Source: a virus. From it: a stretch of DNA of 41,118 bases. The number at the start of each line of letters is the position of its first letter. Position 1 is the first letter of the stretch. Below the pieces are notes generated by a model, which was not told where the DNA came from, ran no database searches, and worked only from the letters and a program-made list of their open reading frames with translations. A program made the position numbers and the translations under genes. This document shows positions 5,384 through 40,498 of this stretch, one piece after another. Location of the stretch: positions 1 to 41,118 of IMG/VR virus record IMGVR_UViG_3300017977_000057; one strand, given 5' to 3'.

Positions 5384-5412
5384 ATTATGTATATAACACA
5401 AGGAGAATGAAA

Positions 5413-6129
5413 ATGGAATATTTAAAAAGAGCCTTTACAGCTATAGGATTACATGGGTTTAAAACTACCAACTTTCCAGATAAAGTTTTTGATTATGAAT
5501 TAGAGTGTCCTCATGATAGACAGTACATACTAAGAATGATGATAAGAGAACCACACGGTGAGTTTAAAATACCTACTGAATTAGAATGGTGTGAAGACTT
5601 AATAGTTAAATGTGATGCTAAACAAAAAGAACATAACCTAAATCATTCTTTCTGTTACATAACTGTTAGACACGGGTTATTAGATAGTGAAACTGATGAT
5701 GAATGGCACACAGATGGATACAGCGAAATGATAACTCATTTACCTGAACAAAACTATATAGTTACCTCTAACTCACCTACAGAATATATAGGACTACCTA
5801 TAGCGTTTCCAGAAGACTTTGATGCTAAAAAACATAACCTAGTAACTTACATAAATTCTGAAGTTGAAAGAAAACAACCTAAAGTACTTAAGGCTCAGAG
5901 TAATAAAGTTTATGTATTTGATCCTTATGTAATACATAGAAGACCTGTAGGTATAGAAGGTAAGATGAGAACATTTGTAAGAGTTACTTTTGTACCTGTC
6001 GAGATTATGGACGATAACTGCACACCTAATCCTCTATTAGCTATTAGAAGATATAATAGAACAGCGGATACGGTAAGAGGTAAACTAATTGAATATAAAA
6101 GAACTTTAAAAAGAAGGATAAAGATATGA
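5413..6129 (+). CDS. 2-oxoglutarate/Fe(II)-dependent dioxygenase-like protein
   Basis: The core has the double-stranded beta-helix iron signature: E-W-H-T-D-G gives the His-x-Asp pair, and P-Y-V-I-H-R-R-P gives the distal His about 74 residues later. An Arg in the following segment MRTFVRVTF is suited to bind 2-oxoglutarate. Such enzymes hydroxylate or oxidise proteins, nucleobases or small molecules; in phages they are linked to DNA or protein modification, so the substrate cannot be named. Two in-frame ATGs exist (5407, 5413). AGGAG at 5401-5405 is one base from the first and seven from the second, so 5413 is chosen (238 aa). Its TGA overlaps the next gene's ATG (ATGA), suggesting coupling. 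Confidence 0.72.
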   Translation: MEYLKRAFTAIGLHGFKTTNFPDKVFDYELECPHDRQYILRMMIREPHGEFKIPTELEWCEDLIVKCDAKQKEHNLNHSFCYITVRHGLLDSETDDEWHTDGYSEMITHLPEQNYIVTSNSPTEYIGLPIAFPEDFDAKKHNLVTYINSEVERKQPKVLKAQSNKVYVFDPYVIHRRPVGIEGKMRTFVRVTFVPVEIMDDNCTPNPLLAIRRYNRTADTVRGKLIEYKRTLKRRIKI

Positions 6130-7721: not shown

Positions 7722-9908
7722 TTAAACTATTTCACAAGCACCGCCAGAGCAAGCTTCCGCTACTATAGTATCTACTTCTGTGTATTTCTTAACTTTTAAT
7801 TTCTCATCCCAGTTAGGTATATTTAAGTTATTTATTATCTTAGACCATTTATGTAAATTATATACATCTTTTAAACAATCTGCACACATATCTACACTAT
7901 CAAATCTTTTAGCAAATTTATTAAATCTTCTAACGAAATCTCTTTTTAATAAATCTGAACTAGATTCAGTTAGTTTCTCACCTATACCTTTAGCGGTATT
8001 GATAGCATTCCATAAATCATCTTTAAACGCAGTTAGTCCCGCTTCTATTAAAGCAGATGTAAATAAAGAATCTTCACCATATTTAGAAAGTATCTCTTCT
8101 GATGTTAATACTTCTGTAAAAGGAGCTTGAGGGTAAGCTTTATCTCCAGAAGCAGATAATAGAGAAACTCCACATAATTTATCTCTATTATCAAAAATAT
8201 AATCTGTTACTTCATCCCAGTCATCTACAGTAATAGTATTACTCACATTATGATTAAGCCAAGGCTTTACACATAAATCATGATTCTTACCATTATTTAC
8301 CCAATTTACTTGTGCTTCAACAACTTTATCTAATTGCTTAACTCCTAGTAAATCAGATTTAAATATAGAACCCTCTTTGGGTATAATAGGAAATGCCACT
8401 ACTATATCATTAGAACCCCATACACTTTCTTCTACCATATTAGGATTTTCTTCCATGAATAGTTTAGCTATCTCCGTACCCTTGTTAAACTGTGTATGTC
8501 TAAGATACCTTTTAGAATGCTCTCCATGTATTCCAGAACCAGTACCCAATAAAACACTGGCGTTTCCGCTTGGCTTAATAGTTGTGGCTCTAGCCGCCTG
8601 GTTTATATCTATTAACTTTGCTGTTAACTTATTGTATTTTTTAACTATACTAGCACCCTTAGCTAAGGTATCTTTATTAAATAAAATCTCTGGATTATTC
8701 ATCCAACCCGTTATTGAAACACCTAGAAGAGCTTCTCTTTCTACTATTTCCTTGGTTTCTTTAGAAACAAATTTAAAATCTGTATAACCCGCTTGTAATG
8801 TACCCATTATAGAAGCCACTTTACACTGATGATAAAATATCTCTTCATTTACAGACATACCACCATTTATTTCTGTTAAGTTACATACAGAAAAACCTGA
8901 TCTACCGTCACTAGTATATGAGTATAATCCTATTTCAACACAAGGGTTATATAGAGAATCTAGATTATCTACCCAGATGAAACCAGGTTCACCAAAATCT
9001 TTAACTGATTTCATAAGGTGTTCAAATTGAGATTTAGTTGTTTTGTCCCTTAAAAGAACTGCTGAGTTATTACTTCTACCTCTATGTGCGTGTTCAATAA
9101 ACCAATCTCCTGTTTTTGCATTAAGCATATCTTCGTCTTCTGGAGAGAACAAACAAATAGCCGCTGCTCTTCTAACTCCACCTGAAATAACTGCATCTGA
9201 AATATGCATTATAATATCGTAAGCTACAATAGTAGGCATAGAAGTTATACCATCACTTACTAAGTTAGTAAGCATAATCTCTATTTTATCTAAAGCCTTT
9301 CTTAGTCCTTCTGGACCAGGAGCTTTAAACCCGCCTGAAATATGAGCACCCTTTGGTCTGATTTTACTTAAATCAAACTTAATAATCTTACCATGGTATT
9401 CTGGATGTTTACCTCCATCTTCAAAGAAAGAACTAAGTAAAATATCTACAGAATCAGCCCACCCCTCTATACTGTCATCTACTGTATAAGTAACAGTTTC
9501 TTTAGCTCTTGGTGAAATCTTAGGTAGTTTATTTATATGTCTATATTGTACACTAAAACCTACACCACAACCAGAAAGCATCAAATGGAATATCTCTCCA
9601 AATACAGCAACTCTATCTATATAAGAGGCAGTGCAATTGAAAAGTTTATTGTGATTCTTAAGTAACTGCTCTCCACCAAACTGCAATGCTCTTTGCGACC
9701 CTAGGAACAATTTTTGTTTATAAGCCATTTCTACTTCAGTCATTAACTCTAACAACTCAGGAGTAAGTTTATCTTTATAAAATGTTTTATGCATTTCCAT
9801 AACTCTACTTACTGATTCATCCCATGTTTCATATCTACCTTCTTTATCTAAAAATCTAGAGTATGACTCGTAAAATTTAGCATCTGCCATTAATTGTTTT
9901 GCATCCAT
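7722..9908 (-). CDS. Adenosylcobalamin-dependent (class II) ribonucleotide reductase
   Basis: Converts ribonucleotides to deoxyribonucleotides without oxygen or a separate radical subunit. The 728 aa length and the motifs fit the monomeric class II RTPR/NrdJ type. Visible residues: Cys92 in LFNCTAS (redox Cys of the active site), the GCGVGFSVQ segment, NPCVEI at 321-326 giving Asn321, Cys323 (thiyl) and Glu325, the partner Cys342 in VCNLTEI, the PSG loop IKPSGNASVLLGTGSG, and a C-terminal C-x4-C pair (Cys720, Cys725) that would be re-reduced by thioredoxin. No nrdB-type subunit or glutaredoxin lies nearby. The ATG overlaps the stop of the upstream small gene by one base (TAATG). The ThyX-like gene is divergent from it, so the two form a dNTP-supply locus. 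Confidence 0.95.
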   Translation of the reverse strand: MDAKQLMADAKFYESYSRFLDKEGRYETWDESVSRVMEMHKTFYKDKLTPELLELMTEVEMAYKQKLFLGSQRALQFGGEQLLKNHNKLFNCTASYIDRVAVFGEIFHLMLSGCGVGFSVQYRHINKLPKISPRAKETVTYTVDDSIEGWADSVDILLSSFFEDGGKHPEYHGKIIKFDLSKIRPKGAHISGGFKAPGPEGLRKALDKIEIMLTNLVSDGITSMPTIVAYDIIMHISDAVISGGVRRAAAICLFSPEDEDMLNAKTGDWFIEHAHRGRSNNSAVLLRDKTTKSQFEHLMKSVKDFGEPGFIWVDNLDSLYNPCVEIGLYSYTSDGRSGFSVCNLTEINGGMSVNEEIFYHQCKVASIMGTLQAGYTDFKFVSKETKEIVEREALLGVSITGWMNNPEILFNKDTLAKGASIVKKYNKLTAKLIDINQAARATTIKPSGNASVLLGTGSGIHGEHSKRYLRHTQFNKGTEIAKLFMEENPNMVEESVWGSNDIVVAFPIIPKEGSIFKSDLLGVKQLDKVVEAQVNWVNNGKNHDLCVKPWLNHNVSNTITVDDWDEVTDYIFDNRDKLCGVSLLSASGDKAYPQAPFTEVLTSEEILSKYGEDSLFTSALIEAGLTAFKDDLWNAINTAKGIGEKLTESSSDLLKRDFVRRFNKFAKRFDSVDMCADCLKDVYNLHKWSKIINNLNIPNWDEKLKVKKYTEVDTIVAEACSGGACEIV

Positions 9909-23210: not shown

Positions 23211-25361
23211 ATGAATATAAACGATATAAATAAAGATGATATATTTGAAGTAGATCCTCTACTTACTATAAACGAAGAACAGCTTAGTATACACGCTATG
23301 AACTCTTTTATCGCACACGATTCAGCATCTAGATCATATATGTTTTCTAGTCACTTTGGTCAACCTGTGGTGTTAGATAATGGTGAAGAAAGAATTGTAC
23401 AATCTGGTATAGAAAAGAAGTTTGGTGGGAATACTTTCTCTAAGAAAATAGAGAATGATAGTAGGATAATTGCAGTTACTACTAGGTACAATGGTATAGA
23501 TAGGAGTAGTGTTAATAATACCGTAGAAATTACTATTATATTTGAAGATTTAGTTACTGATGAGATAGATGTCTTAATTGTACCTAATTACTTTAGCCTA
23601 CATCAATTTTTTGGTTTTAAGTATAAGTGGGATATGGATAAACTTAATAACTTAGTTACTAATACTATTATACCAGGTGGTACTATTTTAGCTGATTCTC
23701 CAGCTGTTAAAGATAATGATGGTTATGCTTTCGGTATGAATTTAAACATACTTAAAACTGTAATGCCTGAGGGTAGTGAGGATAGTGCTATCATTTCAAA
23801 AAGTGCTGCTGAGAAGATGACTTATAAAATGTATGAAACTATAGTAGTTGAATATGGTAATGAGATGTATCCTCTTAACTTATATGGAGAAGCAGACGGT
23901 ATATATAAACCATTTCCTGAAATAGGCGATAGAGTTAGGTCTGACGGTATGATTATGGCTTTAAGAGAAGTAGATGCTGATACGGCTCCTTTAACTACTA
24001 GTAAGTTAGATGTAACTCAACCTGATACATCTTTTGATAAGTGTACTTATGCTAAGAGAGGGGATGGTATAATAACTGACATAAAAGTTTATTATAATCC
24101 TAAATTTAAGAAAGAAGTGTATGCTGGTACAAATGACATTACTGATAAATATATAAATAGTTTAGTAAAGTATCATAGTGATGTTCTAAGCATCTATAAC
24201 AGGATTAAGTCAGATCACTATGCAAAGTATAAGAATCATGATTATAAGTTCTCTAGTGGCTTTACAGCATTAGTTATGGAGTCTTTAGTAATGGCTAGTC
24301 CAGATAATAAAAGGATAAAGAAATCTTATAAAACTGAAGAATTAGATTTATATAGAGTTGAGTTAACTGTTATGTATGAAGAGAAAGTGACAATTGGTTC
24401 AAAAATTACGGATATGTCTGGTGGTAAAGGGGTTATTGGACAGATAGTTGATGACCATTTAATGCCTGTAGATAAGTATGGTAATAGAGCTGAGATTGTT
24501 ATGGATAGTAATGCTACTCCTGCTAGAATGAACTTAGCTAGAAGTTATATACAATATTTCAGTGGTACTTCTAGAGAAGTAAAAAGACTAACTATAGAAG
24601 AACTTAAAGTAATACAAACTAATAAAGGTCTAAAGAATATCTTAGAAGCTTTAGAGTCTTTAAATTTGGAAGAAACTAAACATTTGTTTAGACATATACT
24701 AGCAGTATGTAAGATCATAGATAATGAACAATATCAAGCGTATTCTACATTATCTAACATCAAAGATATTAAAGAGGTGTTACATGAGACTATTACTAAA
24801 GAGTTTTATATTTATCATAAGGTAACTAATAAGAAAAAGAGTTATGCTATAGTAAATGAAATTAGAAATAGTATATATAGGCCTCCTATCGAAGATATCA
24901 TTCTTAATAGAGATGGTGAACTCATACCATCTAAGAATAAGATGCTTATAGCTCCATTGTATATGTTTCTTATATCTAAGACTAGTGATGGTTATTTAAG
25001 TGCTGCTAGTAGTAAAACTAACCATTATGATTTACCAGTAGGTATAAGTAAAGTGGATAAGTCTAGAGTGCCTTTTAGAAGAACTCCTACTAAGATACTA
25101 TCTGAAACTGAAACTAGGTTATACGGTAGCTTTACTCCAGATGAAAGATACCTAATAGAGTTGAAAGATAGAGCTTCTAGTCCTGAAACACATAAGATAG
25201 CTTATAAGAATATTCTTACAGCTCCTAAGCCTACAAACATAGATATCTTAATAGATAGAAGTGTGGTTCCATATGGTAATGATTCTGCTTTAAAGCTAAC
25301 AGAATCTATTCTTAATGCAGCTGGTCTAGGAATAGAGTATTCTCCAGATAAAGATTTATAA
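23211..25361 (+). CDS. Phage RNA polymerase beta-like subunit (C-terminal part)
   Basis: A divergent piece of multisubunit RNA polymerase, as in phiKZ-like phages where beta and beta-prime are each split into separate genes. MPEGSEDSAIISKSAAEKM (about 185-203) matches the bacterial beta segment with YEDSILVSERVV. IGSKITDMSGGKGVIGQI (395-412) matches GDKMAGRHGNKGVISKI. MPVDKYGNRAEIVMDSN followed by TPARMNLAR matches the MPYDENGTPVDIVLNP/PSRMNIGQ block. These belong to the C-terminal half of beta near the active centre. The N-terminal half of beta is absent from the window and presumably encoded elsewhere. AAGGAAAG upstream; preceded by a terminator and a promoter-like motif; followed by a bidirectional hairpin. 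Confidence 0.88.
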   Translation: MNINDINKDDIFEVDPLLTINEEQLSIHAMNSFIAHDSASRSYMFSSHFGQPVVLDNGEERIVQSGIEKKFGGNTFSKKIENDSRIIAVTTRYNGIDRSSVNNTVEITIIFEDLVTDEIDVLIVPNYFSLHQFFGFKYKWDMDKLNNLVTNTIIPGGTILADSPAVKDNDGYAFGMNLNILKTVMPEGSEDSAIISKSAAEKMTYKMYETIVVEYGNEMYPLNLYGEADGIYKPFPEIGDRVRSDGMIMALREVDADTAPLTTSKLDVTQPDTSFDKCTYAKRGDGIITDIKVYYNPKFKKEVYAGTNDITDKYINSLVKYHSDVLSIYNRIKSDHYAKYKNHDYKFSSGFTALVMESLVMASPDNKRIKKSYKTEELDLYRVELTVMYEEKVTIGSKITDMSGGKGVIGQIVDDHLMPVDKYGNRAEIVMDSNATPARMNLARSYIQYFSGTSREVKRLTIEELKVIQTNKGLKNILEALESLNLEETKHLFRHILAVCKIIDNEQYQAYSTLSNIKDIKEVLHETITKEFYIYHKVTNKKKSYAIVNEIRNSIYRPPIEDIILNRDGELIPSKNKMLIAPLYMFLISKTSDGYLSAASSKTNHYDLPVGISKVDKSRVPFRRTPTKILSETETRLYGSFTPDERYLIELKDRASSPETHKIAYKNILTAPKPTNIDILIDRSVVPYGNDSALKLTESILNAAGLGIEYSPDKDL

Positions 25362-26406: not shown

Positions 26407-28428
26407 ATGAATAAGAAACCTGTAAAGATAAGAAGCTTATTATCTATAGAGAAAACATTCGTGTTAGAGAACTTAAAGACAGACTTAGACTTTCTTTTTG
26501 AAGATGGTATAGTGGAGTTTATGAATCACAAAGAATCAGTGATAAATAGATATCTATTAGACCTACTTACACTCTATCCAGAATTACCTATAAAGAGTAC
26601 TTACAGAATAAATAGATATTATACCAATGGTATGTTTACAACTAGTAGCGCTAACAAGTTGTTTTCTGTATTATTAGAAGATATCATTAAGCTGGTACTC
26701 GAACCTAGTGGTAGGTTAAAAGAGCTACCCAATGTATATAAGAAGATGTTTGAGATTATAAATGCTATCTACAATGATGTAGCTTATGGTAAAATAGATT
26801 ATATCAATTCTATTAACATAGAAGACTTCTTAGATATACAAATGGATGATGAGTTACTATTATCTATGAAGATGGTAGAGAAAGAGAATACAGTAACAAG
26901 TGTACTTAATACTTATGATGTATTAGATAAAGTAATACGAGGTAAGAAAGAGCTTAGGATGAATCCCGTAGCTAAAGGTTATATCTCTGGTATGATGAAG
27001 ATAAACCAAGTAAAACAAATACTAGGTAGTATTGGATATAGAACAGAGTTAGATAGTAAGATATTTAAGAAACCTATAGCTTCTAGTTTCTGTTTAGGTA
27101 TACCCGATATGTATGGTATGTCTATAGATAGTAGAGCTGCTGTAAAGGCTTTACATCTAAGTACTGTAGCTATTCAAGATAGTGAGTGGTTTGCTAGAGA
27201 ATTACAATTAGTGACTATGGTGATAAAAAGTATGACTATAGGTGATTGTGGTAGTAGGGATTATGTTAAATGGTATGTAAAGCCAGCTATGGGTGAGATC
27301 AAAAGTGATTTAGGAAATATGGTAGGTAAAAGATACTTAGATCCTAAAACTAATAAAGAGTTAGTTATTAAGAAAGATGATGAACACTTAATTGGTAAGC
27401 ACATTTTAATAAGAGCAGCTCATAAGTGTAAGCTTAAAGATAAACATAGTATATGTTCAGCTTGTTTTGGTGAATTATCATATGGAGTATTTGAACATAC
27501 TAATTTAGGTCATCTTTGTGGAACTACTATGACGGTACCTATTTCACAATCTATTTTAAGTACTAAACATTTAGCTGCATCTGCTGTAGCACATAGTATC
27601 GTTCTAGACACCGTAGCTAAGAGATTCTTATCTATTAAGGACAAGTACCATTATGCTGTTAATAAGTCTTTTAACGCTGTTAAGAATAAAGCTAAACTTA
27701 TTATAACACAAGATCAGATATTAGGTCTTAAAGATTTACTTAGACCATCTGATGTTAAAAAGACAGAGATAACTAGAGTATCTCTTATAGAACATATTAC
27801 TATTACTACAGAAGGTAAGAATGGTAAGTTAGAGTATTTTCCAATTATTATAAAAGATTCAGGTAGATATGGTAGTTTTACACATAAGTTCTTAGAGTAT
27901 GTAGTGGAAGCTGGATATACTTTAGATGGTCAAGATAGATATGTGATAGATTTAGCAGGTTGGACATCAGCTCAAGCTATTATTACTTTACCTCAAGTAG
28001 AGTATAACTTCTTAGACTTATCTAAGGAAACTAAAGCTTTACTTAAAACTATGCCTAACTATAAAGATGGTTCTTGTAAATATACTCCAGAGTTATTAGT
28101 AGAAGAGTTATTCAGTTTGGTTAATAGTAAGTTAGCTGTAAATTTAGCAGTTATTGAAGTTATTGTATATGCTTTTACAGTAACTAGTATAATAAACAAA
28201 AACTATAACATAGGTAGGAATGTAGAGAACCCTGGAATAGCAGATATTAGAGATCTTATAAAACATAGATCTTTAGGAGCTGGATATGGGCATGAATATG
28301 TTGTTCATAAGTTACTATCTCCAGATTCGTTCCAAAAGGAACATAGAATGAATCATCTGTTAGATGGGTTAATAAAACCTAATGAAGTCTTAATGGATAG
28401 AATAGGTACGATTATACCAAAAGTATAA
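26407..28428 (+). CDS. Phage RNA polymerase beta-prime-like subunit (C-terminal part)
   Basis: Matches the C-terminal half of bacterial beta-prime. SRAAVKALHLSTVAIQDSEW (242-261) sits at the bridge-helix/trigger-loop start, where bacteria have ADTALKTANSGYLTRR. GDCGSRD gives Cys281, and C341-x8-C350-x2-C353 in KCKLKDKHSICSACFGE supplies the other three zinc ligands of the second beta-prime zinc site. TNLGHLCGTTMTVPISQSIL then STKHLAAS corresponds to the [20 protein letters not shown] segment. The NADFDGD catalytic loop is in the N-terminal half and is not in this window, so that half must be encoded elsewhere. AAGGAAC upstream of the ATG; a long structured leader precedes it and a terminator follows. 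Confidence 0.87.
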   Translation: MNKKPVKIRSLLSIEKTFVLENLKTDLDFLFEDGIVEFMNHKESVINRYLLDLLTLYPELPIKSTYRINRYYTNGMFTTSSANKLFSVLLEDIIKLVLEPSGRLKELPNVYKKMFEIINAIYNDVAYGKIDYINSINIEDFLDIQMDDELLLSMKMVEKENTVTSVLNTYDVLDKVIRGKKELRMNPVAKGYISGMMKINQVKQILGSIGYRTELDSKIFKKPIASSFCLGIPDMYGMSIDSRAAVKALHLSTVAIQDSEWFARELQLVTMVIKSMTIGDCGSRDYVKWYVKPAMGEIKSDLGNMVGKRYLDPKTNKELVIKKDDEHLIGKHILIRAAHKCKLKDKHSICSACFGELSYGVFEHTNLGHLCGTTMTVPISQSILSTKHLAASAVAHSIVLDTVAKRFLSIKDKYHYAVNKSFNAVKNKAKLIITQDQILGLKDLLRPSDVKKTEITRVSLIEHITITTEGKNGKLEYFPIIIKDSGRYGSFTHKFLEYVVEAGYTLDGQDRYVIDLAGWTSAQAIITLPQVEYNFLDLSKETKALLKTMPNYKDGSCKYTPELLVEELFSLVNSKLAVNLAVIEVIVYAFTVTSIINKNYNIGRNVENPGIADIRDLIKHRSLGAGYGHEYVVHKLLSPDSFQKEHRMNHLLDGLIKPNEVLMDRIGTIIPKV

Positions 28429-28516: not shown

Positions 28517-30817
28517 ATGAAAGAAAAGGTAAAAATAACATTGTTGAATACCGCATTTACTGTGGTTCATACACCAGCTCTTAATAGAGTATTGGAAGAT
28601 ATGTTAAGAGAAATGACTACTTATAAGCCTGTATTCGATAGAAAGACTCGTAGAATGGTAAGTCAGAAAGATAAAGTGTTTGCAGCTAAACATATAAATC
28701 CTAATATTTTAAGATTTAATATAAATGTAATAGGTAAGTTTATATCTTTGTTAAAAATAAATGGTTATACTAAAGATGATGTAATACTTTTAAAGGATAA
28801 AGAGTATAAAATTGATAAGCTTGATTTAAAAGTAAATCCAGAGTTTACTTCTAGAGAGTATCAAAATAAGTATAAAGCAGGTATAGTAGATATACAAGAA
28901 GATAATAGAGCTAAGCTAGTAAATCTTCAAACAGGTATGGGTAAAGCATTAGCTGACGATATGTTAGTAAAAACAGTATTAGGTTGGAAGAAAATATCCA
29001 ACCTTGATGTAGGCGATGCCGTAATTTCTAGAGATGGAAGTATAACAGAAGTATTAGGAGTTTATCCACAAGATGGTGTAAGAGATGTATTTGAATTTAA
29101 GTTAGACGATAATAGAAGTTTAGATGCAGATGATAATCACTTATGGAAAGTATATTCTAAATTAACTTCTAAACCAAAAGGTGAAGTAATTACTACTAGA
29201 GAAGTAAGAGAAAGGTTAAAGGATAATCAACAGTTATTCATAGACCTACCTCAGCCTCATATAGGTAAAGAAAATGATATAGAAGATATAGATTATGCAT
29301 TAGACTTCGATAGATTTTTAACAAACAAAAACCTATACAATATGTTATTAGAATCTAGGTCAGTTCAAAGAGAGTATATCTTAGATAAAATCATATCTTC
29401 TTCTACATACACTATAGTGAAAAACAGTTTTATACTAGAAGTAGGTAATAATTTAGAGAAGAGTAAATTCATTATAGATTTAGTTAGATCCATAGGTGGA
29501 GTAGCTTATAAAGATATAGATGTCTTAGGAATAAAACTAACTATAAAGTTACAGAAGTATAGTTATATTACTAATGACGATATAAGAAAATTAAAACCTA
29601 TAAAACCGTTTATTAAGATAAAGAGTGTTACAGTATGTAGGCGAACTACAACTACTTGTATAGCTGTAGATAACGAAGATAAGTTGTTTTTAGCACAAGA
29701 CTATATAGTTACACATAATACTTTTATAGCTATGAATAGCTTAGTAGAATTAAATATGAAGTTTGGTATATTAGTTTTACCCAAGTATATAGAAAAATGG
29801 ATAATGGATGTTAAGAAATTAACTAATATTAAAGATGATGAAATATGCGTAGTACAGGGTAGTAGTCAGCTTATAAATCTAATGTTAGATGTGATAGAAG
29901 GTGATAGAAGTTATAAAGTAGTTATATTCTCTATGAGAACTATATATAACTATATCAAAGCTTACGAACAGTTAGAAGTAGGTGATGAGTTTATGTATCC
30001 TGTAGAACCACAGAATTTAATACAGTTGCTAAGATTAGGTGTATTACTTAATGATGAATCGCATCAAGAGTTCTATAGTTTATTTAAAACATCTTTATAT
30101 TTTAATACTAAATTACTTTTAGGATTATCGGCAACTTTTGACACTAATGATAAATACATAAAGACTATGCATGATTTGTTATTTCCAGATAAGGATAGAT
30201 TAGCTAATATTATCGAGTACAATAAATATATAGATATCTATAGTATTAGATACTTTTTTGAAGCACCTTTAAGAATACAACATCAAAGGTCACAAGGTTA
30301 TAATCATATACTCTTAGAGCAAAGTGTAATGAGAAATAGAAATATAAAAAATAACTATTTCGATTTGATTCTTAAGTATGTTAAAGAAGGATATTACGAT
30401 AGGTATAAGAAAGGAGATAAGATACTCATTTTCTGTGCTAGTATAGATATGTGTACAGAGTTAACTATGTTGACTAAAAGAATATATCCTAAGTTAAAAG
30501 TTAATAGATATGTAGAAGATGATCCTTTTGAAAATGTACTTAACTCAGACATATGCTATTCCACCGTATTGAGCTCAGGAACTGCCATAGACCTACCTAA
30601 TTTGACTACAGTGATACAAACCATCAGTATAGCGTCGCCTACAGCTAATAAACAAGCATTAGGTAGACTTAGAGAGATAAAGGGTAGGGATATGAGATAT
30701 TATTATATCTTTGCTGGTAACTTAGATAAACAAGTAAACTTACATAAAATAAGGATGGAGATGTTAAAACCTCTTTCTAAATCTTATACGCATTTACAAT
30801 ATGATAAAAGAATATAA
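28517..30817 (+). CDS. SF2 helicase precursor interrupted by an intein
   Basis: After intein removal (residues 144-401) the spliced protein is about 508 aa. The P-loop TGMGK/TF is split exactly at the intein site. Other SF2 motifs are intact: DESH (513-516, motif II), LSAT (537-540, motif III), and QALGRLREIKGR near the C-terminus (motif VI, Q-x-x-G-R). This resembles UvsW-like or other phage DEAD/DExH DNA helicases acting in recombination or origin remodelling. No SF1 signature. AAGGAG precedes the ATG; a terminator lies upstream, and the next gene starts 16 bases downstream. The catalytic Lys and Thr of the P-loop are separated until splicing, so activity depends on it. Confidence 0.85.
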   Translation: MKEKVKITLLNTAFTVVHTPALNRVLEDMLREMTTYKPVFDRKTRRMVSQKDKVFAAKHINPNILRFNINVIGKFISLLKINGYTKDDVILLKDKEYKIDKLDLKVNPEFTSREYQNKYKAGIVDIQEDNRAKLVNLQTGMGKALADDMLVKTVLGWKKISNLDVGDAVISRDGSITEVLGVYPQDGVRDVFEFKLDDNRSLDADDNHLWKVYSKLTSKPKGEVITTREVRERLKDNQQLFIDLPQPHIGKENDIEDIDYALDFDRFLTNKNLYNMLLESRSVQREYILDKIISSSTYTIVKNSFILEVGNNLEKSKFIIDLVRSIGGVAYKDIDVLGIKLTIKLQKYSYITNDDIRKLKPIKPFIKIKSVTVCRRTTTTCIAVDNEDKLFLAQDYIVTHNTFIAMNSLVELNMKFGILVLPKYIEKWIMDVKKLTNIKDDEICVVQGSSQLINLMLDVIEGDRSYKVVIFSMRTIYNYIKAYEQLEVGDEFMYPVEPQNLIQLLRLGVLLNDESHQEFYSLFKTSLYFNTKLLLGLSATFDTNDKYIKTMHDLLFPDKDRLANIIEYNKYIDIYSIRYFFEAPLRIQHQRSQGYNHILLEQSVMRNRNIKNNYFDLILKYVKEGYYDRYKKGDKILIFCASIDMCTELTMLTKRIYPKLKVNRYVEDDPFENVLNSDICYSTVLSSGTAIDLPNLTTVIQTISIASPTANKQALGRLREIKGRDMRYYYIFAGNLDKQVNLHKIRMEMLKPLSKSYTHLQYDKRI
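28946..29719 (+). other. Intein (258 aa), class 3-like, in the helicase P-loop
   Basis: The insert starts with Ala144 (ALADDMLVKTVLGWKKISNL), a typical block-A sequence but with Ala instead of Cys/Ser. It ends VTHN followed by Thr. The class 3 WCT set is present: Trp in block B (DNHLWKV), Cys381 in block F (TTCIAVDNEDKLFLA), Thr before the penultimate His (VTHN). Splicing would start at the block-F Cys. Between blocks B and F, residues ~260-345 resemble a LAGLIDADG endonuclease half, but the acidic motif is lost (LDKIISSSTY), so homing is probably dead. Confidence 0.85.
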
Positions 30818-30833: not shown

Positions 30834-31304
30834 ATGGAGAATTTTATAGCGGTATATGATACCATAGATGAAGTTAGTTATCTATTTTATTTAGATGGTA
30901 ACTTTATGTATAAAGCAAAATTAAATAATTCTTTTGAAGAGTTATGTTTGTTAGTTAGAAAGTATGGTGACAATGTTTCAGAATATCCTACAATAGAAGT
31001 AGATAAGTATTCTAATTTTAATGATATATTTAAAGACATTACAGGGTTTATTATAGATAAGAATTACTTACTTACAGATATGAAAGGTAACCAGTTTTTC
31101 AGAACATCTAAAGATCTATTAATATTACCTAATAACACGGCTTTACATAATGATATAACAGAGTTTATTATTCACGCAGATCATAGGTTAGGTGAAAAAG
31201 ATGAAACTCTTACTATTATAAATAACTATAAGATCAGTTTCATTACAGAAAGATATGGTATATTTATAAATACTATAAAGGATAATTTAATTTTAGTAGC
31301 ATAG
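30834..31304 (+). CDS. Hypothetical protein (156 aa)
   Basis: Not recognised. Soluble alpha/beta protein with many Asp, Asn and Ile, without signal peptide or membrane segment. AAGGAGA precedes the ATG 16 bases after the helicase stop, so it is in the same transcript as the helicase and ends at the terminator at 31300. Function cannot be assigned. Confidence 0.7.
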   Translation: MENFIAVYDTIDEVSYLFYLDGNFMYKAKLNNSFEELCLLVRKYGDNVSEYPTIEVDKYSNFNDIFKDITGFIIDKNYLLTDMKGNQFFRTSKDLLILPNNTALHNDITEFIIHADHRLGEKDETLTIINNYKISFITERYGIFINTIKDNLILVA

Positions 31305-31344
31305 TTGGGTAATTCCAACTATGTTATAGTCTTTTTTCTTTTAT
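31300..31344 (+). terminator. Rho-independent terminator before the lysis cassette
   Basis: CATAGTTGG (31300-31308) and CCAACTATG (31315-31323) flank GTAATT, followed by CTTTTTTCTTTT. It overlaps the stop codon of the preceding gene. Confidence 0.85.
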
Positions 31345-31591: not shown

Positions 31592-31957
31592 ATGGAACCA
31601 ACAACAACTACAATGGTTATACTAAATGAAGCAATGCAAATCTTCATAAGTTTATTATTTACAGCAGTGAGTGGCTTTGCTATAAACTGGTTAAGAACTA
31701 GTTCAACTGCAGCTAAGTACAAGCTAAACAATGATAGAATTGAAGCTACTATAGCTAATGCAATAGATTATGCTGAAAACGCTACTAAAAAAGTAGCTAT
31801 GGATGGCTTAGCTAAGAAAAAATACGCTATAAAATATATAGAAGGAATAGATCCATCTATTATAAAAGAAAAGGGTGATAGTTTAGAACTGATGATAGAT
31901 AGAAAAGTTTATCAAAAGTTTGGTATAAATAAAATACCTAGTCAAAAAGCAGAATAG
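31592..31957 (+). CDS. LLH-type phage holin-like protein (121 aa)
   Basis: One N-terminal transmembrane helix (about 12-32, FISLLFTAVSGFAINWL) is followed by a charged helical C-terminal domain, RIEATIANAIDYAENATKKV then GLAKKKYAIKYIE. This layout and the A-V/I-x-Y-A-E pattern match the phage holin LLH family (Lactobacillus phage LL-H type). It would form membrane lesions or control their timing to release endolysin. AAGGAAG precedes the ATG; a 15-bp hairpin follows. Confidence 0.7.
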   Translation: MEPTTTTMVILNEAMQIFISLLFTAVSGFAINWLRTSSTAAKYKLNNDRIEATIANAIDYAENATKKVAMDGLAKKKYAIKYIEGIDPSIIKEKGDSLELMIDRKVYQKFGINKIPSQKAE

Positions 31958-32032: not shown

Positions 32033-32554
32033 ATGGAAATAAATAAAAATGATTTAAGACTATATTATGGTGTAACTCACGGAATATCATTGCCATCTAA
32101 GTTGATTAAGTGGTTTCAATGGGGTGATAGTAGAACTCATGCGTTCTTTGTGTTACCTGGAGAAGAAGATAATATAGATCCTAATCAAATAGAAGCTGAT
32201 TTTGGAGGTGTTAGAACAGGTAAGTTAAGTGAATTCCATACTCCTAAAACTAAGTATGATATCTATTATGTAGAGTGTGAAAGTATAGAGCAGAAGAATA
32301 ACATAGTTTCTGATTTAAAGAAAACTATAGGTATGGATTATGACTATTTAGGTTTACTAGGTTTTGCTAATAGAAGTAAGGGAGTAGAGAATGAAGATAA
32401 GGTATTCTGTTCGGAAAATATTTATAATGTATTTTATAAAAATGGGTTAAGGTTATTTAATACTTTAAAGGGATCTCAAGTCTTTCCATCTCTATTAACA
32501 GAGACTCCATTAGCTACACATTATAGGATGGGGTTTATACCTGATAAAAAATAA
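32033..32554 (+). CDS. Permuted papain-fold hydrolase (YiiX/DUF830-like)
   Basis: Circularly permuted NlpC/P60-like cysteine hydrolases cleave amide or peptide/lipid bonds. The expected order is present: a histidine in GDSRTHAFFVLPG (His36) before the catalytic cysteine in VFCSENIYNVF (Cys126), whose CSE triad of letters is a hallmark of the YiiX/YaeF group. Acidic Glu57/Asp56 or Glu81 may orient the His. No signal peptide. Placed after the holin-like genes and before the lysozyme, so a peptidoglycan-crosslink-cleaving lysis role is plausible, though these enzymes also act on lipids. AAGGATAA upstream of the ATG. Confidence 0.62.
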   Translation: MEINKNDLRLYYGVTHGISLPSKLIKWFQWGDSRTHAFFVLPGEEDNIDPNQIEADFGGVRTGKLSEFHTPKTKYDIYYVECESIEQKNNIVSDLKKTIGMDYDYLGLLGFANRSKGVENEDKVFCSENIYNVFYKNGLRLFNTLKGSQVFPSLLTETPLATHYRMGFIPDKK

Positions 32555-32574: not shown

Positions 32575-33033
32575 ATGGAAGTGTTAAACGAAGAGGTTAT
32601 AGGTATCTTAGCTAAGTTAAGATCAGATATAGAAGCGGTTGGAGATGATGAAAGTGAGCAAGAGCTTCTTTTATCCATGAGTCACCTAGATGAATCAGTA
32701 TATGAAACTTTAATATTAATGCATATGAGTAATAGGCAGAAATACATATTGTTAGAGAAGAAAGTGCATGGTTCTTTAGATAAGTTGGTAAGAGTAGCAG
32801 AGAAACAAATACAAGTAAACAAGAAATTAGCACATCATACTACTAAAAAGAATGTAAAGTGGTTACCGCAGGTAATATTGTTTAGATTAGTAGCAGTTTT
32901 TGTAGTAGTCTTTTTCTTTATATGGTTAGCGCATATGTTTAATCCTGCTTCTACGGAGTATGTTATTAGTATAGCTGGTAAGTTTATGGATAGGTTAGAT
33001 AAAGAAACCTTTTTAGTGTTGTTAGGACTTTAG
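32575..33033 (+). CDS. Single-pass membrane protein (152 aa), partner candidate for the signalling pair
   Basis: Residues 1-100 are acidic then basic and helical, with a coiled-coil-like stretch (KLVRVAEKQIQVNKKLAHH). A strong transmembrane helix follows at about 99-122 (ILFRLVAVFVVVFFFIWLAHM) and then a short C-terminal tail. By the positive-inside rule the long N-terminus is likely cytoplasmic. No family recognised. It lies 20 bases after the hydrolase gene and 9 bases before the receiver gene, so it may be a lysis regulator, spanin-like or signalling adaptor. Confidence 0.65.
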   Translation: MEVLNEEVIGILAKLRSDIEAVGDDESEQELLLSMSHLDESVYETLILMHMSNRQKYILLEKKVHGSLDKLVRVAEKQIQVNKKLAHHTTKKNVKWLPQVILFRLVAVFVVVFFFIWLAHMFNPASTEYVISIAGKFMDRLDKETFLVLLGL

Positions 33034-33042
33034 GAGTAAATT

Positions 33043-33702
33043 ATGAAAAATAACAGAATAATAAAATGGATAGTGAAATATTTTAAAATGTCCTTTGGCT
33101 TAGCTAAAGAGGAAGAAGAATTTAAATACGCTACTCCTGATAGCATAAGTGAAACACTTCCAGATAGTATAGAAGATTGTAATATAGGTACCTATGAGAC
33201 CAGATGCAGTGAAATAGATGCTAATAAGAAAAATATGTTATTAATGGATGACGCTATGATGCAATTTGGTTTACATGCTTTAGATTTCAATAAGATAAAA
33301 AGAAATTACCACTGTGATGTAGATGATAAATTCAATGTTTATATGTGTAAAGGTAGATATGCGGGATTTATAGCTCACGATTTAATACTAAATCTAGAAT
33401 ACTTGGATGTAGCTATCTTAGACCTTACTTTAGAGACTAGAGTAAAACTAAAAAATGGTAATATATATAGTTATGATGGTATAGACATTGCTGTATTAAT
33501 AAAGTCTAAATTTCCTAAATGTAGATTTAAGTTCTTTACCTCTCACAATATGAATCATAGAGACGAATCTATTATTTATTATGTAGAGAAGTATAAACAG
33601 TTGTTAGGCGGTAATATTATGGCTAAGGTTATCTCCAAATCAGATAACAGAGTAAAACATCTAAGAAGTCTCATGGAGTGTCCAGATGTTAAGCAAGAAT
33701 AG
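33043..33702 (+). CDS. Receiver-domain (response regulator-like) protein (219 aa)
   Basis: Receiver domains accept phosphate from histidine kinases. The five key positions are visible in order: acidic pair Asp69-Asp70 at the end of strand 1 (NMLLMDD), phospho-acceptor Asp127 at the end of strand 3 (VAILDLTLE), Thr166/Ser167 (FKFFTSH), and Lys199 (VISKSDN). Spacings are longer than usual, implying insertions in the loops. A ~60-residue N-terminal segment precedes the domain, and only about ten residues follow, so there is no DNA-binding output domain. The histidine kinase gene overlaps it by 17 bases, which supports the pairing. AGGAG upstream of the ATG. The alternative, a chance motif string in an unrelated fold, is less likely. 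Confidence 0.65.
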   Translation: MKNNRIIKWIVKYFKMSFGLAKEEEEFKYATPDSISETLPDSIEDCNIGTYETRCSEIDANKKNMLLMDDAMMQFGLHALDFNKIKRNYHCDVDDKFNVYMCKGRYAGFIAHDLILNLEYLDVAILDLTLETRVKLKNGNIYSYDGIDIAVLIKSKFPKCRFKFFTSHNMNHRDESIIYYVEKYKQLLGGNIMAKVISKSDNRVKHLRSLMECPDVKQE

Positions 33703-35014
33703 TAACCCATTATCTTTAAATATGGTTTTCAAAAGATATTTTATAAATTTATTTATATTTATTTTTTTTACAGCTATAGTTACAGCTTATGCTGTTATCG
33801 TTACGGACCAACAAAGAGCAAAGTCATTTTCTAATTTAATTATAAATACAACTGAAATAAATAAAGAGAATTTAAGGGAAATATGTAAACTTACAGAGTG
33901 TTCCACTATAAGATACAATGGAGTAGCTTATAGGTTTGATTCTATAGATGGTAAACCATATGTTTGTGATAGTGCAACTAGACTAAAGTTTTTTATCAAG
34001 TCTAATTTACCAAATGTTATATCTATACATAAAGATGGAGTGGATGTTCTCATTATAGGTAATGATGAGCAGTTAGTAGCTATAATATGGTCAGCTACAA
34101 AGTTACTAATGATGTTATCTTTTTTATTTACTTTAGTCTATTTATTCTATCTAAAGAATGTAACTAGAAATACTATCTTAGCCAATAAGAATATACAAGA
34201 CTTATTAGCTAGTAAGTTACAAAGAACTATGGTAGAGTCTATGTATCATGATGCTTTAGGACCTATAGTAGTAATAAAGGATATCTCTAATGAGCTAATA
34301 CCCCATATGGAGAATAATACTATAAGTACACTAGGTAAAGATAATCTTTTTCTATACACTAATAGCCTAACTACTGCTGTAGATCAATTAGAGAGTGTTC
34401 TATTATCTTTAAAAGAGAGTAAGAATTATTCTTATACTAATGGTAACAAGAGTGTATATAACTTAATAACTAATATATTAGCTACAATAAGTAAGTTTAA
34501 GATGGATAAGTTTAATAGTAGTATTTTAAAAGAAGAATTGTTAGACACATATAGATTATCTTCTATGGCTAACGGAGAACTATCCGTAGTTCTTAATAAT
34601 CTTATTACTAATGCATTAGAAGCGGGTAGTACAACTATTATGTTTGATGCTAATGTAAGAAAAAATAAAGTTATGGATATATATGTAATTGATGATGGTA
34701 GAGGTGTAAGAGACTTAAATGGTAAAGTATTAAGTAAAGAGAATTACCATATGATATTTAATAAAGGTATAACTACTAAAGCTACTAATAATTCAGTTTC
34801 TATAAATGAAAAACTAACTTGGTTACAAACTAAGTTTAAAAATTATGTTATGGGTGACTTTATTACTTTAGATAGTGGTAGAGGAGAAGGTCTCTTTATA
34901 ATAAAAGAGAAGCTTACAAAGTGTGGCGGTAGTATAGAGTTAGAAAGTACCGCTAGTAATGGTTCTGTATTTAAAATTACAGTACCCATAGAGAAAATAA
35001 AGAAAGGTAAATAA
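33686..35014 (+). CDS. Membrane sensor histidine kinase (442 aa)
   Basis: Autophosphorylates a histidine using ATP and passes the phosphate to a receiver. Two transmembrane helices (about 15-39 and 130-157) bracket a ~90-residue extracytoplasmic sensor region with four Cys (67, 72, 94 and nearby). The dimerisation/phosphoacceptor helix has MYHDALGP (His188). The ATPase part has the N box VLNNLITNALEAG (302-314), G1 box DDGRG (336-340), F-box-like IFNKGITTK (357-365), and G2 box GRGEGLFIIKEKL (398-410), then the usual C-terminal strands. All essential boxes are intact. The start at 33686 lies inside the receiver gene with GGAG upstream; the next gene overlaps by one base. It is embedded in the lysis cassette. 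Confidence 0.88.
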   Translation: MLSKNSNPLSLNMVFKRYFINLFIFIFFTAIVTAYAVIVTDQQRAKSFSNLIINTTEINKENLREICKLTECSTIRYNGVAYRFDSIDGKPYVCDSATRLKFFIKSNLPNVISIHKDGVDVLIIGNDEQLVAIIWSATKLLMMLSFLFTLVYLFYLKNVTRNTILANKNIQDLLASKLQRTMVESMYHDALGPIVVIKDISNELIPHMENNTISTLGKDNLFLYTNSLTTAVDQLESVLLSLKESKNYSYTNGNKSVYNLITNILATISKFKMDKFNSSILKEELLDTYRLSSMANGELSVVLNNLITNALEAGSTTIMFDANVRKNKVMDIYVIDDGRGVRDLNGKVLSKENYHMIFNKGITTKATNNSVSINEKLTWLQTKFKNYVMGDFITLDSGRGEGLFIIKEKLTKCGGSIELESTASNGSVFKITVPIEKIKKGK

Positions 35015-35709
35015 TGAAAAATATACAAGAGTTTTTAAATTGGTTTAGAGTAAGAAGTCCTAAAATTCCTAAGAATTATGAGATGTTATTAGATAACATC
35101 GACGATGCTGAAGGTGGAACATTACATAGAAATCGTAGAGAAAGTAATATAACTAATGGATGGGGGATATACAAAGCATTACATCCTAATGCACTTCTAT
35201 GGAAGTATGTAGATTTAGTTTCTAGCGAAGTTACAGATTTAGATACTGAAGACTGGGAAAAAGATTTAATAGATTTAATAGATAGTAGGTTAGATAAAGA
35301 TATAGAAAGATACTTATCTTATTTATTCTATAAAGAATATCTTAAAGGAGCACACTTAGAGTTATTTGATAAGGATCTAGTTATCACTATGGCTAACTTA
35401 TATACTAACTCTCCTGAGGGTGCTTGGATGTCTGTACAAGAGGGTATATGGGATATGTATAAATATGGTCTATTAGATCATGATAAAACTGATATATCTG
35501 GTGTAGATGGAGGGTTCGGTGGTAAGACTAAAAGGTGTCTACTTAAATTAAATAATAGAGATTTCAAAGATGATATTATTTTTAAACAAGCTATTTTATT
35601 AGCTATGAAAAGTTACTATACTGATTTAACTGTAGGTAACCCCGACAAGTACCTTAGAAATGGTAATGGGTGGGATAACCGTATGGAAGATTTACAACAT
35701 AGTAAATAA
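35014..35709 (+). CDS. GH108-family lysozyme/endolysin (231 aa)
   Basis: Cleaves the glycan backbone of peptidoglycan. The N-terminal part has the GH108 signature: acidic residue in IDDAEGGTLHR (Glu33 in E-G-G, the likely catalyst) and ITNGWGIYKALHP matching the usual TNYGIT. The C-terminal part (SPEGAWMSVQEGIWDMYKY, then DGGFGGKTK) matches the companion peptidoglycan-binding region, where LQ...DGxxGxxT is typical. No signal peptide, so release would need the holin-like proteins upstream. The ATG overlaps the kinase stop by one base, tying its translation to the signalling genes. The next gene begins 11 bases after its stop. Confidence 0.82.
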   Translation: MKNIQEFLNWFRVRSPKIPKNYEMLLDNIDDAEGGTLHRNRRESNITNGWGIYKALHPNALLWKYVDLVSSEVTDLDTEDWEKDLIDLIDSRLDKDIERYLSYLFYKEYLKGAHLELFDKDLVITMANLYTNSPEGAWMSVQEGIWDMYKYGLLDHDKTDISGVDGGFGGKTKRCLLKLNNRDFKDDIIFKQAILLAMKSYYTDLTVGNPDKYLRNGNGWDNRMEDLQHSK

Positions 35710-37494: not shown

Positions 37495-37854
37495 ATGGGT
37501 GATAGATGTTTTATATTTATACCTTCGGGTGATAATGAAAAAGATATAAAAGAGTTAAGTAAATTGATAAATAACTTAAGAGAATCTTCTATAACTTCAG
37601 ATCAAATGGAAGACTTTAGAGAAGAGATGTTTGATAAGTTTATCTCTATTGAAAAATACAACGCTGATAAAGAAACTATAGAAGAAACTATAGATGGTAA
37701 AGAACATAAAAGTTATTTACCTGCTGAAATAGTTAAAATCATAATAGTTTTCTTTTTAGGTGTTACCCTTACAAGTGGTGTATTCTTTTATAATCTTTAC
37801 CATAAAAATGTAAAAGAGAAGACCACTTTAGTAAGAAAAGAAACAAGCTCTTAA
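37495..37854 (+). CDS. Membrane-anchored small protein (119 aa)
   Basis: No family recognised. The N-terminal ~80 residues are charged and helical, followed by one transmembrane helix at about 82-104 (IVKIIIVFFLGVTLTSGVFF) and a basic/Thr/Ser-rich C-terminal tail. AAGGA upstream of the ATG. It is a single gene between hairpins at 37452 and 37865. Its position near fibre and lysis genes leaves a role in envelope attachment, superinfection exclusion or lysis open. Confidence 0.68.
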   Translation: MGDRCFIFIPSGDNEKDIKELSKLINNLRESSITSDQMEDFREEMFDKFISIEKYNADKETIEETIDGKEHKSYLPAEIVKIIIVFFLGVTLTSGVFFYNLYHKNVKEKTTLVRKETSS

Positions 37855-37864
37855 TATATTAATT

Positions 37865-37899
37865 ATATACACTACGACTATTATAGTCGTAGTGTATAT
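37865..37899 (+). terminator. Perfect 16-bp-stem terminator
   Basis: ATATACACTACGACTA pairs perfectly with its complement (37884-37899) around TTA, followed by TTACTTT. It separates 37495-37854 from 37951. Confidence 0.75.
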
Positions 37900-38882: not shown

Positions 38883-40406
38883 TTAAAAGTCTAATGCATC
38901 TTTATCATCTTGAACATCAGGGTCTATAGTTTTAGCATCATCAAACACATCTTCTCTCAATGGCATCTCCACAGGAAATTGTAACTTAAAAAACATTTTA
39001 TCTTTAGGGATAATGATAGGGGTTCTATGTTTACCTCTTTGCACAGTGAGATGAGGAATTTTATTAAAATCAGCTATATGAATATATAATTCTAAGTCTA
39101 CTACCTGATCTATTTGTTTACTTTCCGCAGTGTAACCTTTACCAGCTATCTCTTTTACGAAACTAGCAGCTGGTACGCCATTTCGTATAAGTTGCTTAGC
39201 TTCAGTACTGACCTGATGAGGACTTACGAATAGTATCCTTTTTGAAGAGAAGAAATTTCTCGCTTTGTTAAATAGTTCTCTATACGCTGTACCAGCTGGA
39301 CCATTAGTATTACAACCTGTTGTAGGTAGCTTAGCTAAGTAATCACAAAAGAATGCATGTATTTCATAACCATTAGCTTCTAGTTCTAATACATAGTTAA
39401 ACATATCTCTATATGTCCATTCATCTGGATTAACTCTCATAATCTCACAATGATATCCATTAGCAGATAATTTCTTATGTACATAAGTAGCTATCTCTTC
39501 AGGAGGAATATTATTAATATCTGGTAGCTTTTTAAACTCATTAGTATAAAGATATCTATATATAAACTCATATGCTACTTCAGCATCATCTTCAAATGTA
39601 AGATATACCATTAATGGCTTCTTATCCTTATTATCCATAACTGGTTTATTAAGCATTTGTAATTGAGCAAATAGAGTCTGGGTAAATCCTGATTTGTAAT
39701 TATGTTGTAACGCATTTATAATAACAGTTTCACCTCTTCTAGGTCCACCACTAGTCATAGTATTTAAATCTTTAAATCCTGTCATAAACTTAGTGGAATT
39801 ATTATTATTACCCTTAATTCTAGTAAGTGTTTCTTTAACAGCATCTAGGTCAGATAAGTTTATCTTTGTTAAGATAGCAGGGTCATTTTCAACAGTGCTT
39901 TGATTAATAGCATCTAACTTAGTAGTTAACTCAGTAGCTAAATCAAATATACTATCTTTATTACCTAAGCTATTTACTTTAAAAGAAGCTTGTTGTATAT
40001 ACTTTATCATTTTTATCTCTTTGATATACTTAGTAATACTCCTTCTAGATGTAATTATAGACTTCTTAAATATCTTTTCGTCAAATGGTTTATTTATAGC
40101 TTCTTTCAATACTTCGGCAATAGTGGGTTCATTCTTACCTAATATTATATTTACCTGACTTATTATATCTTCACTATCTTTATCGTCATCTTTACTTAAT
40201 AAAGATTTAGTTAAGTTTTTAAGTTCTCCTATTACATCACTACTACCACCATGTAGTAAATTCATTTGTTTATCATTGTCTATAGTATCTAAGAATTCAG
40301 TTATTAAACCTTTACTTCCTTCAGATAACCCATCACTTACTATATTGTCTCTATATATTAAAACTAGTGATTTTACTAGCATAGTTATTACTTTACTGTG
40401 GTTCAC
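38883..40406 (-). CDS. DnaB-like replicative helicase (507 aa)
   Basis: The C-terminal two-thirds match the RecA-fold helicase of the DnaB/gp41 family. They have a GGPRRGETVIINALQHNYKSG region (Walker A position, with non-canonical N-Y-K-S in place of G-K-T), FEDDAEVA after it, IHAFFCDYLAKLP (Walker B/H3 Asp), SPHQVSTEAKQL (H4 Gln), and KGYTAESKQIDQVVDLEL near the end. A ~200-residue helical N-terminal part replaces the usual DnaB N-domain. The reading frame opens earlier, but the first codons lack an ATG. AAAGGA lies about six bases before a GTG at 40406 (VNHSKVITML), taken as start. Confidence 0.8.
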   Translation of the reverse strand: MNHSKVITMLVKSLVLIYRDNIVSDGLSEGSKGLITEFLDTIDNDKQMNLLHGGSSDVIGELKNLTKSLLSKDDDKDSEDIISQVNIILGKNEPTIAEVLKEAINKPFDEKIFKKSIITSRRSITKYIKEIKMIKYIQQASFKVNSLGNKDSIFDLATELTTKLDAINQSTVENDPAILTKINLSDLDAVKETLTRIKGNNNNSTKFMTGFKDLNTMTSGGPRRGETVIINALQHNYKSGFTQTLFAQLQMLNKPVMDNKDKKPLMVYLTFEDDAEVAYEFIYRYLYTNEFKKLPDINNIPPEEIATYVHKKLSANGYHCEIMRVNPDEWTYRDMFNYVLELEANGYEIHAFFCDYLAKLPTTGCNTNGPAGTAYRELFNKARNFFSSKRILFVSPHQVSTEAKQLIRNGVPAASFVKEIAGKGYTAESKQIDQVVDLELYIHIADFNKIPHLTVQRGKHRTPIIIPKDKMFFKLQFPVEMPLREDVFDDAKTIDPDVQDDKDALDF

Positions 40407-40498
40407 AATATATCCTTTAATTTTATTTTCTATCAAATTGATAAATGTGTAAATAAAAACAAGCTATCTATCCTATGAATATAATAGTAGGAGGTGAA

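Follow-up and report, generated by a model that had tools for sequence, protein, structure and literature searches.

The phage fragment and its signalling operon

The whole stretch of DNA analysed here, the 41,118 bases of IMGVR_UViG_3300017977_000057 (hereafter, the window), is a fragment of a jumbo phage genome with a low GC content (27–32%). It encodes RNA polymerase beta (23211–25361) and beta' (26407–28428) subunits having approximately 25–32% identity to those of phiKZ-like phages, as well as a divergent DnaB-like ATPase (38883–40436) that matches PF20307 (E 1e-100). Far closer relatives, 42–50% identical in beta, were retrieved from IMG/VR with a beta alignment. Judged by these sequences, the source of the window is a phiKZ-related, Chimalliviridae-like low-GC jumbo phage. 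Other genes of the window include an SF2 helicase (28517–30817) with an intein-like insert at residues ~143–400, which ends in HN followed by T; its homologue in LucasX is annotated as intein-containing, and those in L011, L012, L025 and G012 are enlarged likewise. At 7722–9908, on the reverse strand and so opposite to most genes, lies a gene for a class II (B12-dependent) ribonucleotide reductase that scores weakly in Pfam, and a 240-aa protein (5407–6129) has a His/Asp pattern like that of 2-oxoglutarate/Fe(II) oxygenases, with no significant match in a Pfam search.

The forward strand of the window also carries three closely packed genes, encoding a protein with a single transmembrane (TM) segment (32575–33033), a receiver (33043–33702) and a membrane sensor histidine kinase (33686–35014). 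A first-pass annotation, made from the sequence alone, had reported the last two as a complete-looking kinase-receiver pair overlapping by 17 bases; the ORF positions, the overlap and the intact catalytic residues are all borne out, and the unit is bigger than a pair, the gene at 32575–33033 being an obligatory third member. Homologues of the three were compared among nine carriers, namely, the window, G009, G010, G011, G012, G017, G020, G021 and G059.

The kinase (442 aa) is identified by Pfam, a family profile and TM prediction. Its HATPase_c domain (PF02518, E 6e-9) scores over the curated Pfam cut-off, and two TM segments (residues 14–32 and 130–148) flank a periplasmic region of ~95 aa, after which come the DHp and ATPase domains. 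The phosphoacceptor H188 (34247–34249) lies in the box YHDALGP, where H188 and P193 are invariant in the nine homologues. Equally invariant are N309 of the N box (34610–34612), D336, G338 and G340 of the G1 box D336-D-G-R-G340 (34691–34705), F358 of the F box, and R399, G400 and G402 of the G2 box R399-G400-E-G402 (34880–34891). The domain match and this invariance uphold the earlier reading of a membrane histidine kinase with His188 and N, G1, F and G2 boxes. The HisKA-type H-[DE]-x3-P box is present, having D or E at H+1 in 9/9 and the invariant proline at H+5 (P193). Pfam HisKA itself does not match the window kinase, and the family profile matches HK853 (4jas) with an E-value of 4.8e-9 and the histidines in register. 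Two hydrophobic segments reach the threshold in the sensor region of 7/9 kinases, and one does so in G010 and G020.

In HisKA kinases with phosphatase activity the residue at H+4 is T or N, a feature of bifunctional members that is not required for belonging to the family. In the nine homologues this position is G, G, M, M, M, L, S, S and A (G in the window), so that the phosphatase motif E/DxxT/N after the histidine is missing in 9/9. Because H+4 is never T or N, the enzyme may be a kinase with little phosphatase activity, acting as a one-way switch. The kinase of G059 (L125:8452–9456) has just 334 aa, with two TM segments ~13 residues apart and the periplasmic sensor missing; since it is nearly without a periplasmic loop, the signal may be read there inside the membrane or via a partner.

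The 219-aa receiver has an N-terminal extension of ~60 aa with an amphipathic helix, an extra loop after D127 and no output domain; no DNA-binding domain was detectable, in agreement with the earlier statement that a DNA-binding output domain is lacking. It was compared with its homologues in the eight relatives, which are mostly 18–39% identical to it. The only positions invariant in these nine sequences are D69, D70, L77, D127, G146, F164, T166, H168 and K199, and five of the nine make up the whole receiver active site: the acid pair D69-D70 (33247–33252), the phosphoacceptor D127 (33421–33423), the switch residue T166 (33538–33540) and K199 (33637–33639). These are exactly the landmarks named in the first-pass annotation. 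The profile comparison that it had proposed for this protein also came out in favour of a receiver: in hhalign, the family profile and eight E. coli receivers aligned so that the acid pair, phospho-Asp and Thr coincided, and the match reached a probability of 85% (E 6e-6), vs at most 1.4% for 200 column-shuffled alignments and 0.1% for an unrelated control family. Against PDB sequences the profile gave only five matches at E ≤ 10, four of them receivers (E 0.1–0.7), and in Pfam the best recognised receiver family among the members was Response_reg (E 0.016, one member). Searched alone, the window protein was matched by nothing in Pfam, PHROGs, NCBIfam, PDB, phages or IMG/VR, nor by any PADLOC defence family, and against a receiver HMM it scored no better than its own shuffles. 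AlphaFold on the lone sequence reached a pLDDT of 34, the kinase likewise giving no usable model. The identity of the protein is demonstrable because relatives supplied the profile, and the lone sequence would have left it unproven; with the nine sequences together, the 219-aa protein is, by profile and invariant residues, a receiver.

The remaining member, whose homologues are encoded immediately 5' of the receiver in 9/9 genomes, is in the window a 152-aa protein; it has a cytoplasmic helical region and one strong C-terminal TM segment (residues 100–118). It contains no recognisable lysis domain and is a candidate partner of the receiver. The order single-TM protein, receiver, kinase is kept in 9/9 carriers, always closely packed and at several genomic sites, which answers the survey of synteny in relatives proposed earlier. 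The spacing between the first two genes is −20 to 15 bp, and the second and third overlap by 11–68 bp in 8/9 carriers, with a 4 bp gap in G010. No broken reading frame was found in the module of any carrier. Pairwise distances are correlated among the three proteins (r 0.72–0.88, with at most 3 of 5000 permutations as high), the value for the receiver and kinase matrices being r 0.875 (0/5000), and shared phage ancestry alone would yield part of this correlation. The conserved signalling unit is, from gene order and covariation, the three-gene operon of single-TM protein, receiver and kinase. Very probably it is a functional two-component module, for which phosphotransfer from kinase to receiver is predicted indirectly, from the overlapping genes, their co-occurrence in 9/9 and the correlated divergence.

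Carriers and genomic surroundings of the module

Fifty records behind the beta loci were scanned, and HATPase_c was found in seven; inspection of the surrounding DNA placed a receiver homologue directly 5' of every kinase in these seven. The eighth relative, G059 (L125), was found by a receiver-alignment scan and has all three genes. HATPase_c was found in none of the 43 other records of the beta search (some of them fragments), nor in the named complete phages FLC9, SNUABM_54, Eowyn, MS31, LucasX and FLC8, nor in eight IMG/VR relatives. In a 45-row beta tree, the carriers fall within one supported clade (99/87) of 12 rows, and the four non-carrier rows of this clade are fragments: a 150-kb record, whose beta is identical to that of the carrier L024, and pieces of 59, 19 and 8 kb. 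Because these four are fragments, the clade offers no near-complete genome that demonstrably lacks the module, and the 4 label changes on the tree are owed, at least in part, to missing data. As far as these records go, the module marks one clade of jumbo phages.

The genomic site of the operon varies. It follows the helicase gene in the window, G010 and G012, lies between beta and beta' on the opposite strand in G009 and G011, and is found elsewhere in G017, G021 and G059; in G020 it is near the DnaB-like gene, as in the window. The nearest rows to the window by beta are L021/L023 together with L029, whereas its receiver is nearest to that of G020 (39%) and merely 18–21% identical to those of L021/L023. 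This discordance between receiver and beta kinship means that the module has moved or been exchanged. Set against L108 and L110, the window receiver shows this departure from the polymerase tree. Kinase and receiver-alignment scans of 84,980 bacterial and archaeal genomes gave no relatives, exact-peptide seeding being insensitive. Generic E. coli kinase and receiver queries returned ~200–250 records labelled as phage, many of which may be bacterial contigs filed as such; since the kinase records that were opened (MaAM05 and contig405706) look bacterial, with aspS, coaE and glnE-type genes, these matches were not used as evidence for phage kinases.

Lysis genes are found on both sides of the module in the window. 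A holin of the LLH/holin_6_1 kind (31592–31957; PHROG 6918, E 1e-7; PF09682, E 5e-4), outside the conserved module, and a C92 permuted papain-like amidase/peptidase, YiiX-like (32033–32554; PF05708, E 1.2e-7, over the cut-off), lie 5' of it, and an endolysin-like gene (35014–35709; 231 aa, GH108/PG_binding_3-like) starts at the last base of the kinase stop, a 1-base overlap; all three are on the forward strand. The position of the pair among lysis genes, as first annotated, stands in the window, its GH108 label being the weaker part, with a PG_binding_3 match at E 0.024 and no GH108 match in Pfam. Strong terminator-like hairpins at 31296–31327 and 37865–37899 may bound a transcript with the lysis genes and the module. 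A further small protein (37495–37854) with a cytoplasmic helical part, a C-terminal TM segment and a weak XhlA/hemolysin-like PHROG match (E 0.025) is possibly another lysis protein.

Among the relatives, C92 homologues adjoin the module in G017 and G021. In G017, C92 is followed by an M15 endolysin 23 bp 5' of gene 1; in G021, two endolysins (PHROG 2649, and M15 on the opposite strand) are just 5' of the operon and C92 comes after it. G020 has an M15 endolysin 1.1 kb 5' on the same strand, and G059 has a homologue of the window endolysin 3.9 kb 3'. That endolysin is a conserved phage gene, with homologues in G009 (where it is beside C92), G012, G014 and G059, and the holin homologue of G021 is ~80 kb from the module. 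No endolysin was recognised in G011. The module therefore adjoins peptidoglycan hydrolases, which belong to unrelated families, in 4/9 genomes and has them within 4 kb in 5/9. That the module repeatedly borders non-homologous hydrolases, and does so at different sites, is in our judgement more than chance would give in genomes of at least 200 kb; the carriers are related, so the counts are not independent. The first-pass annotation had named, as a finding that would refute it, relatives with the same lysis module but without the pair, and this applies in part: homologous endolysins lie 9 and 35 kb away from the module in G009 and G012, and the M15 endolysin of G010 is 50 kb off. On these gene positions, the link between module and lysis genes appears real but partial. 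The lysis cassette of G009 (L126:243–4178), which does not have the module inside, is compact and contains the endolysin and C92, a protein with a signal peptide and homology to the non-specific endonuclease of G020, a protein with two TM segments, and a spanin-like pair made up of a membrane protein and a lipoprotein.

The operon goes on past the kinase in four carriers (G010, G012, G020 and G021): first comes a conserved secreted protein of ~95 aa that contains conserved cysteines, then a signal-peptide protein of 380–422 aa (~390 aa) with an aromatic residue near a terminal F (L109:7712–9189, L111:9673–11290, L113:7861–9268 and L114:9647–11121). Outer-membrane barrels typically end with an aromatic residue near a terminal F, and the ~390-aa protein is a putative outer-membrane protein; Pfam and PDB gave no match for it, and a strand-alternation test for beta-barrels, a crude one, lacked power even on OmpC. 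The ~95-aa protein likewise has no family match. If the barrel call is right, the module members of these four would span the whole envelope. The two genes are absent from the window and five of the nine carriers, and lysis genes do not continue the four operons.

Proposed role and alternative explanations

In HisKA systems, the kinase autophosphorylates on His and the phosphate is then transferred to Asp. By the same logic, the phage kinase would read the envelope state and autophosphorylate on H188, and the phosphate would move to D127 of the receiver. Since the receiver has no output domain, its target would be a protein, for which the obligatory single-TM protein is the strongest candidate; the phosphorylated receiver would most likely contact its cytoplasmic part. 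By way of the single-TM protein it would reach the lysis proteins (holin/endolysin release) and determine the time of lysis, or whether it takes place at all, with an outcome functionally akin to T4 lysis inhibition. The best explanation of the locus, for which the case is close to evenly balanced, is a phage-owned, inner-membrane, envelope-sensing phosphorelay, most likely steering lysis timing by protein contact. Lysis timing as the main output is a little short of an even case. Counted in its favour is the lysis inhibition of phiKZ, a member of the same broad group as the carriers.

Envelope remodelling or superinfection exclusion, instead of lysis, would be a rather unlikely output, in which the module senses the envelope and adjusts the surface of the infected cell, its lysis and tail neighbours being a late host-interaction region. 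The secreted ~95-aa and putative outer-membrane ~390-aa genes after four of the kinases are what such a role would use, and tail-like genes are close to the module too; however, the outer-membrane call has no Pfam or PDB support, these genes are missing from most of the carriers, including the window, and lysis genes adjoin the module in 4/9. It is improbable that the output is host takeover, with the phage kinase phosphorylating host two-component proteins, or the receiver draining phosphate from them, so that host envelope or stress signalling is rewired in infection. A receiver without output domain would suit this, H+4 without T or N is consistent with a kinase-biased enzyme, and a phage AgrC without a receiver has been proposed to feed a host regulator (PMC3901668); nevertheless, the three proteins of the module remain linked in the carriers and co-vary, an indication of a self-contained pathway, and no close bacterial relatives were found, in scans that were insensitive.

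Two further readings deny the pair a signalling role of this kind. The 219-aa protein could be a cREC-kind enzyme (cyclic-phosphate processing receiver) with an incidental or regulatory kinase neighbour, as cRECs are known from jumbo phages (PMC7824862) and one family member has a weak cREC_REC match (PF20274, E 0.17). Such an identity is highly improbable: Response_reg matches better, the classical T and K are invariant, the kinase is adjacent in 9/9 whereas cRECs are described as never occurring with histidine kinases (PMC7824862), and none of the NAD/ADP-ribose enzymes was recognised in the module neighbourhoods. Decaying, host-derived cargo without function in the phage would fit the varying genomic site and module trees that do not strictly follow the polymerase tree; yet despite deep divergence not one active-site residue varies, the frames are intact in every carrier, and conservation leaves this reading largely refuted and the least probable of all.

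With lysis timing retained as the favoured output, it can be proposed, tentatively, that a phage-owned transmembrane phosphorelay evolved in a clade of jumbo phages, one that senses the envelope during infection and switches lysis on or off post-translationally, a kinase-controlled lysis inhibition. With the same reserve, this relay would comprise the kinase, the output-less receiver and a membrane effector, some members having periplasmic and outer-membrane inputs. Jumbo phages with their own sensor kinase, receiver and membrane protein may thus sense the envelope and use the signal for lysis timing, and the invariant His and Asp permit clean point-mutant tests.

Comparison with known systems

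Bacterial HisKA-type systems (HK853-RR468, PhoR-PhoB and ZraS-ZraR) share with the phage module the two-TM kinase with H, N, G1, F and G2 boxes, the receiver residues DD, D, T and K, and the overlapping genes in one operon. The module differs in being phage-encoded with its own single-TM third protein, in a receiver that is extended at its N-terminus, has a long loop following the phospho-Asp and lacks an output domain, and in a kinase without T or N at H+4. LytST-LrgAB and the RoeA-controlled lysis cassettes (PMC3507848, PMC10101115) also link two-component-type regulators with holin-like or holin/endolysin genes; unlike the phage module, these are chromosomal and act through DNA-binding transcription regulators.

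No phage kinase-receiver pair situated in a lysis region, and no complete, clade-conserved two-component module on lytic jumbo phages, was found in the open-access papers searched. The first-pass annotation had likewise been aware of no such pair in a lysis module, a claim that this literature supports and that slightly overstates the novelty, as a phage kinase beside an endolysin gene and without a receiver was already published. In the Clostridioides difficile phage phiCDHM1, an agrC-agrB-agrD locus adjoins the endolysin gene, with no response regulator (PMC3901668). It resembles the present module in having a sensor kinase on a phage genome beside an endolysin gene, and differs in that the phage is temperate, the kinase is of the host quorum-sensing agr type and there is no phage response regulator. 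The cREC proteins of jumbo phages, for their part, share a divergent receiver domain and have been reported never to occur with histidine kinases, being tied to NAD/ADP-ribose enzymes (PMC7824862), whereas the receiver described here always adjoins a kinase. The published cases are thus a phage kinase near an endolysin without a receiver, and jumbo-phage receivers without a kinase.

T4 lysis inhibition operates by direct periplasmic binding of the antiholin RI to the holin T, with no kinase (PMC8385771, PMC11413866), and in phiKZ lysis is inhibited on reinfection under genetic control, the mechanism being described as still unclear (PMC7909554). Of the named relatives tested, none carries the module. 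The function proposed as shared with T4 and phiKZ is the sensing of an envelope event, e.g., reinfection, to set lysis timing. Should lysis be under its control, the module would amount to a lysis timer based on phosphorylation and would make lysis inhibition in phiKZ-type phages accessible to testing (PMC7909554).
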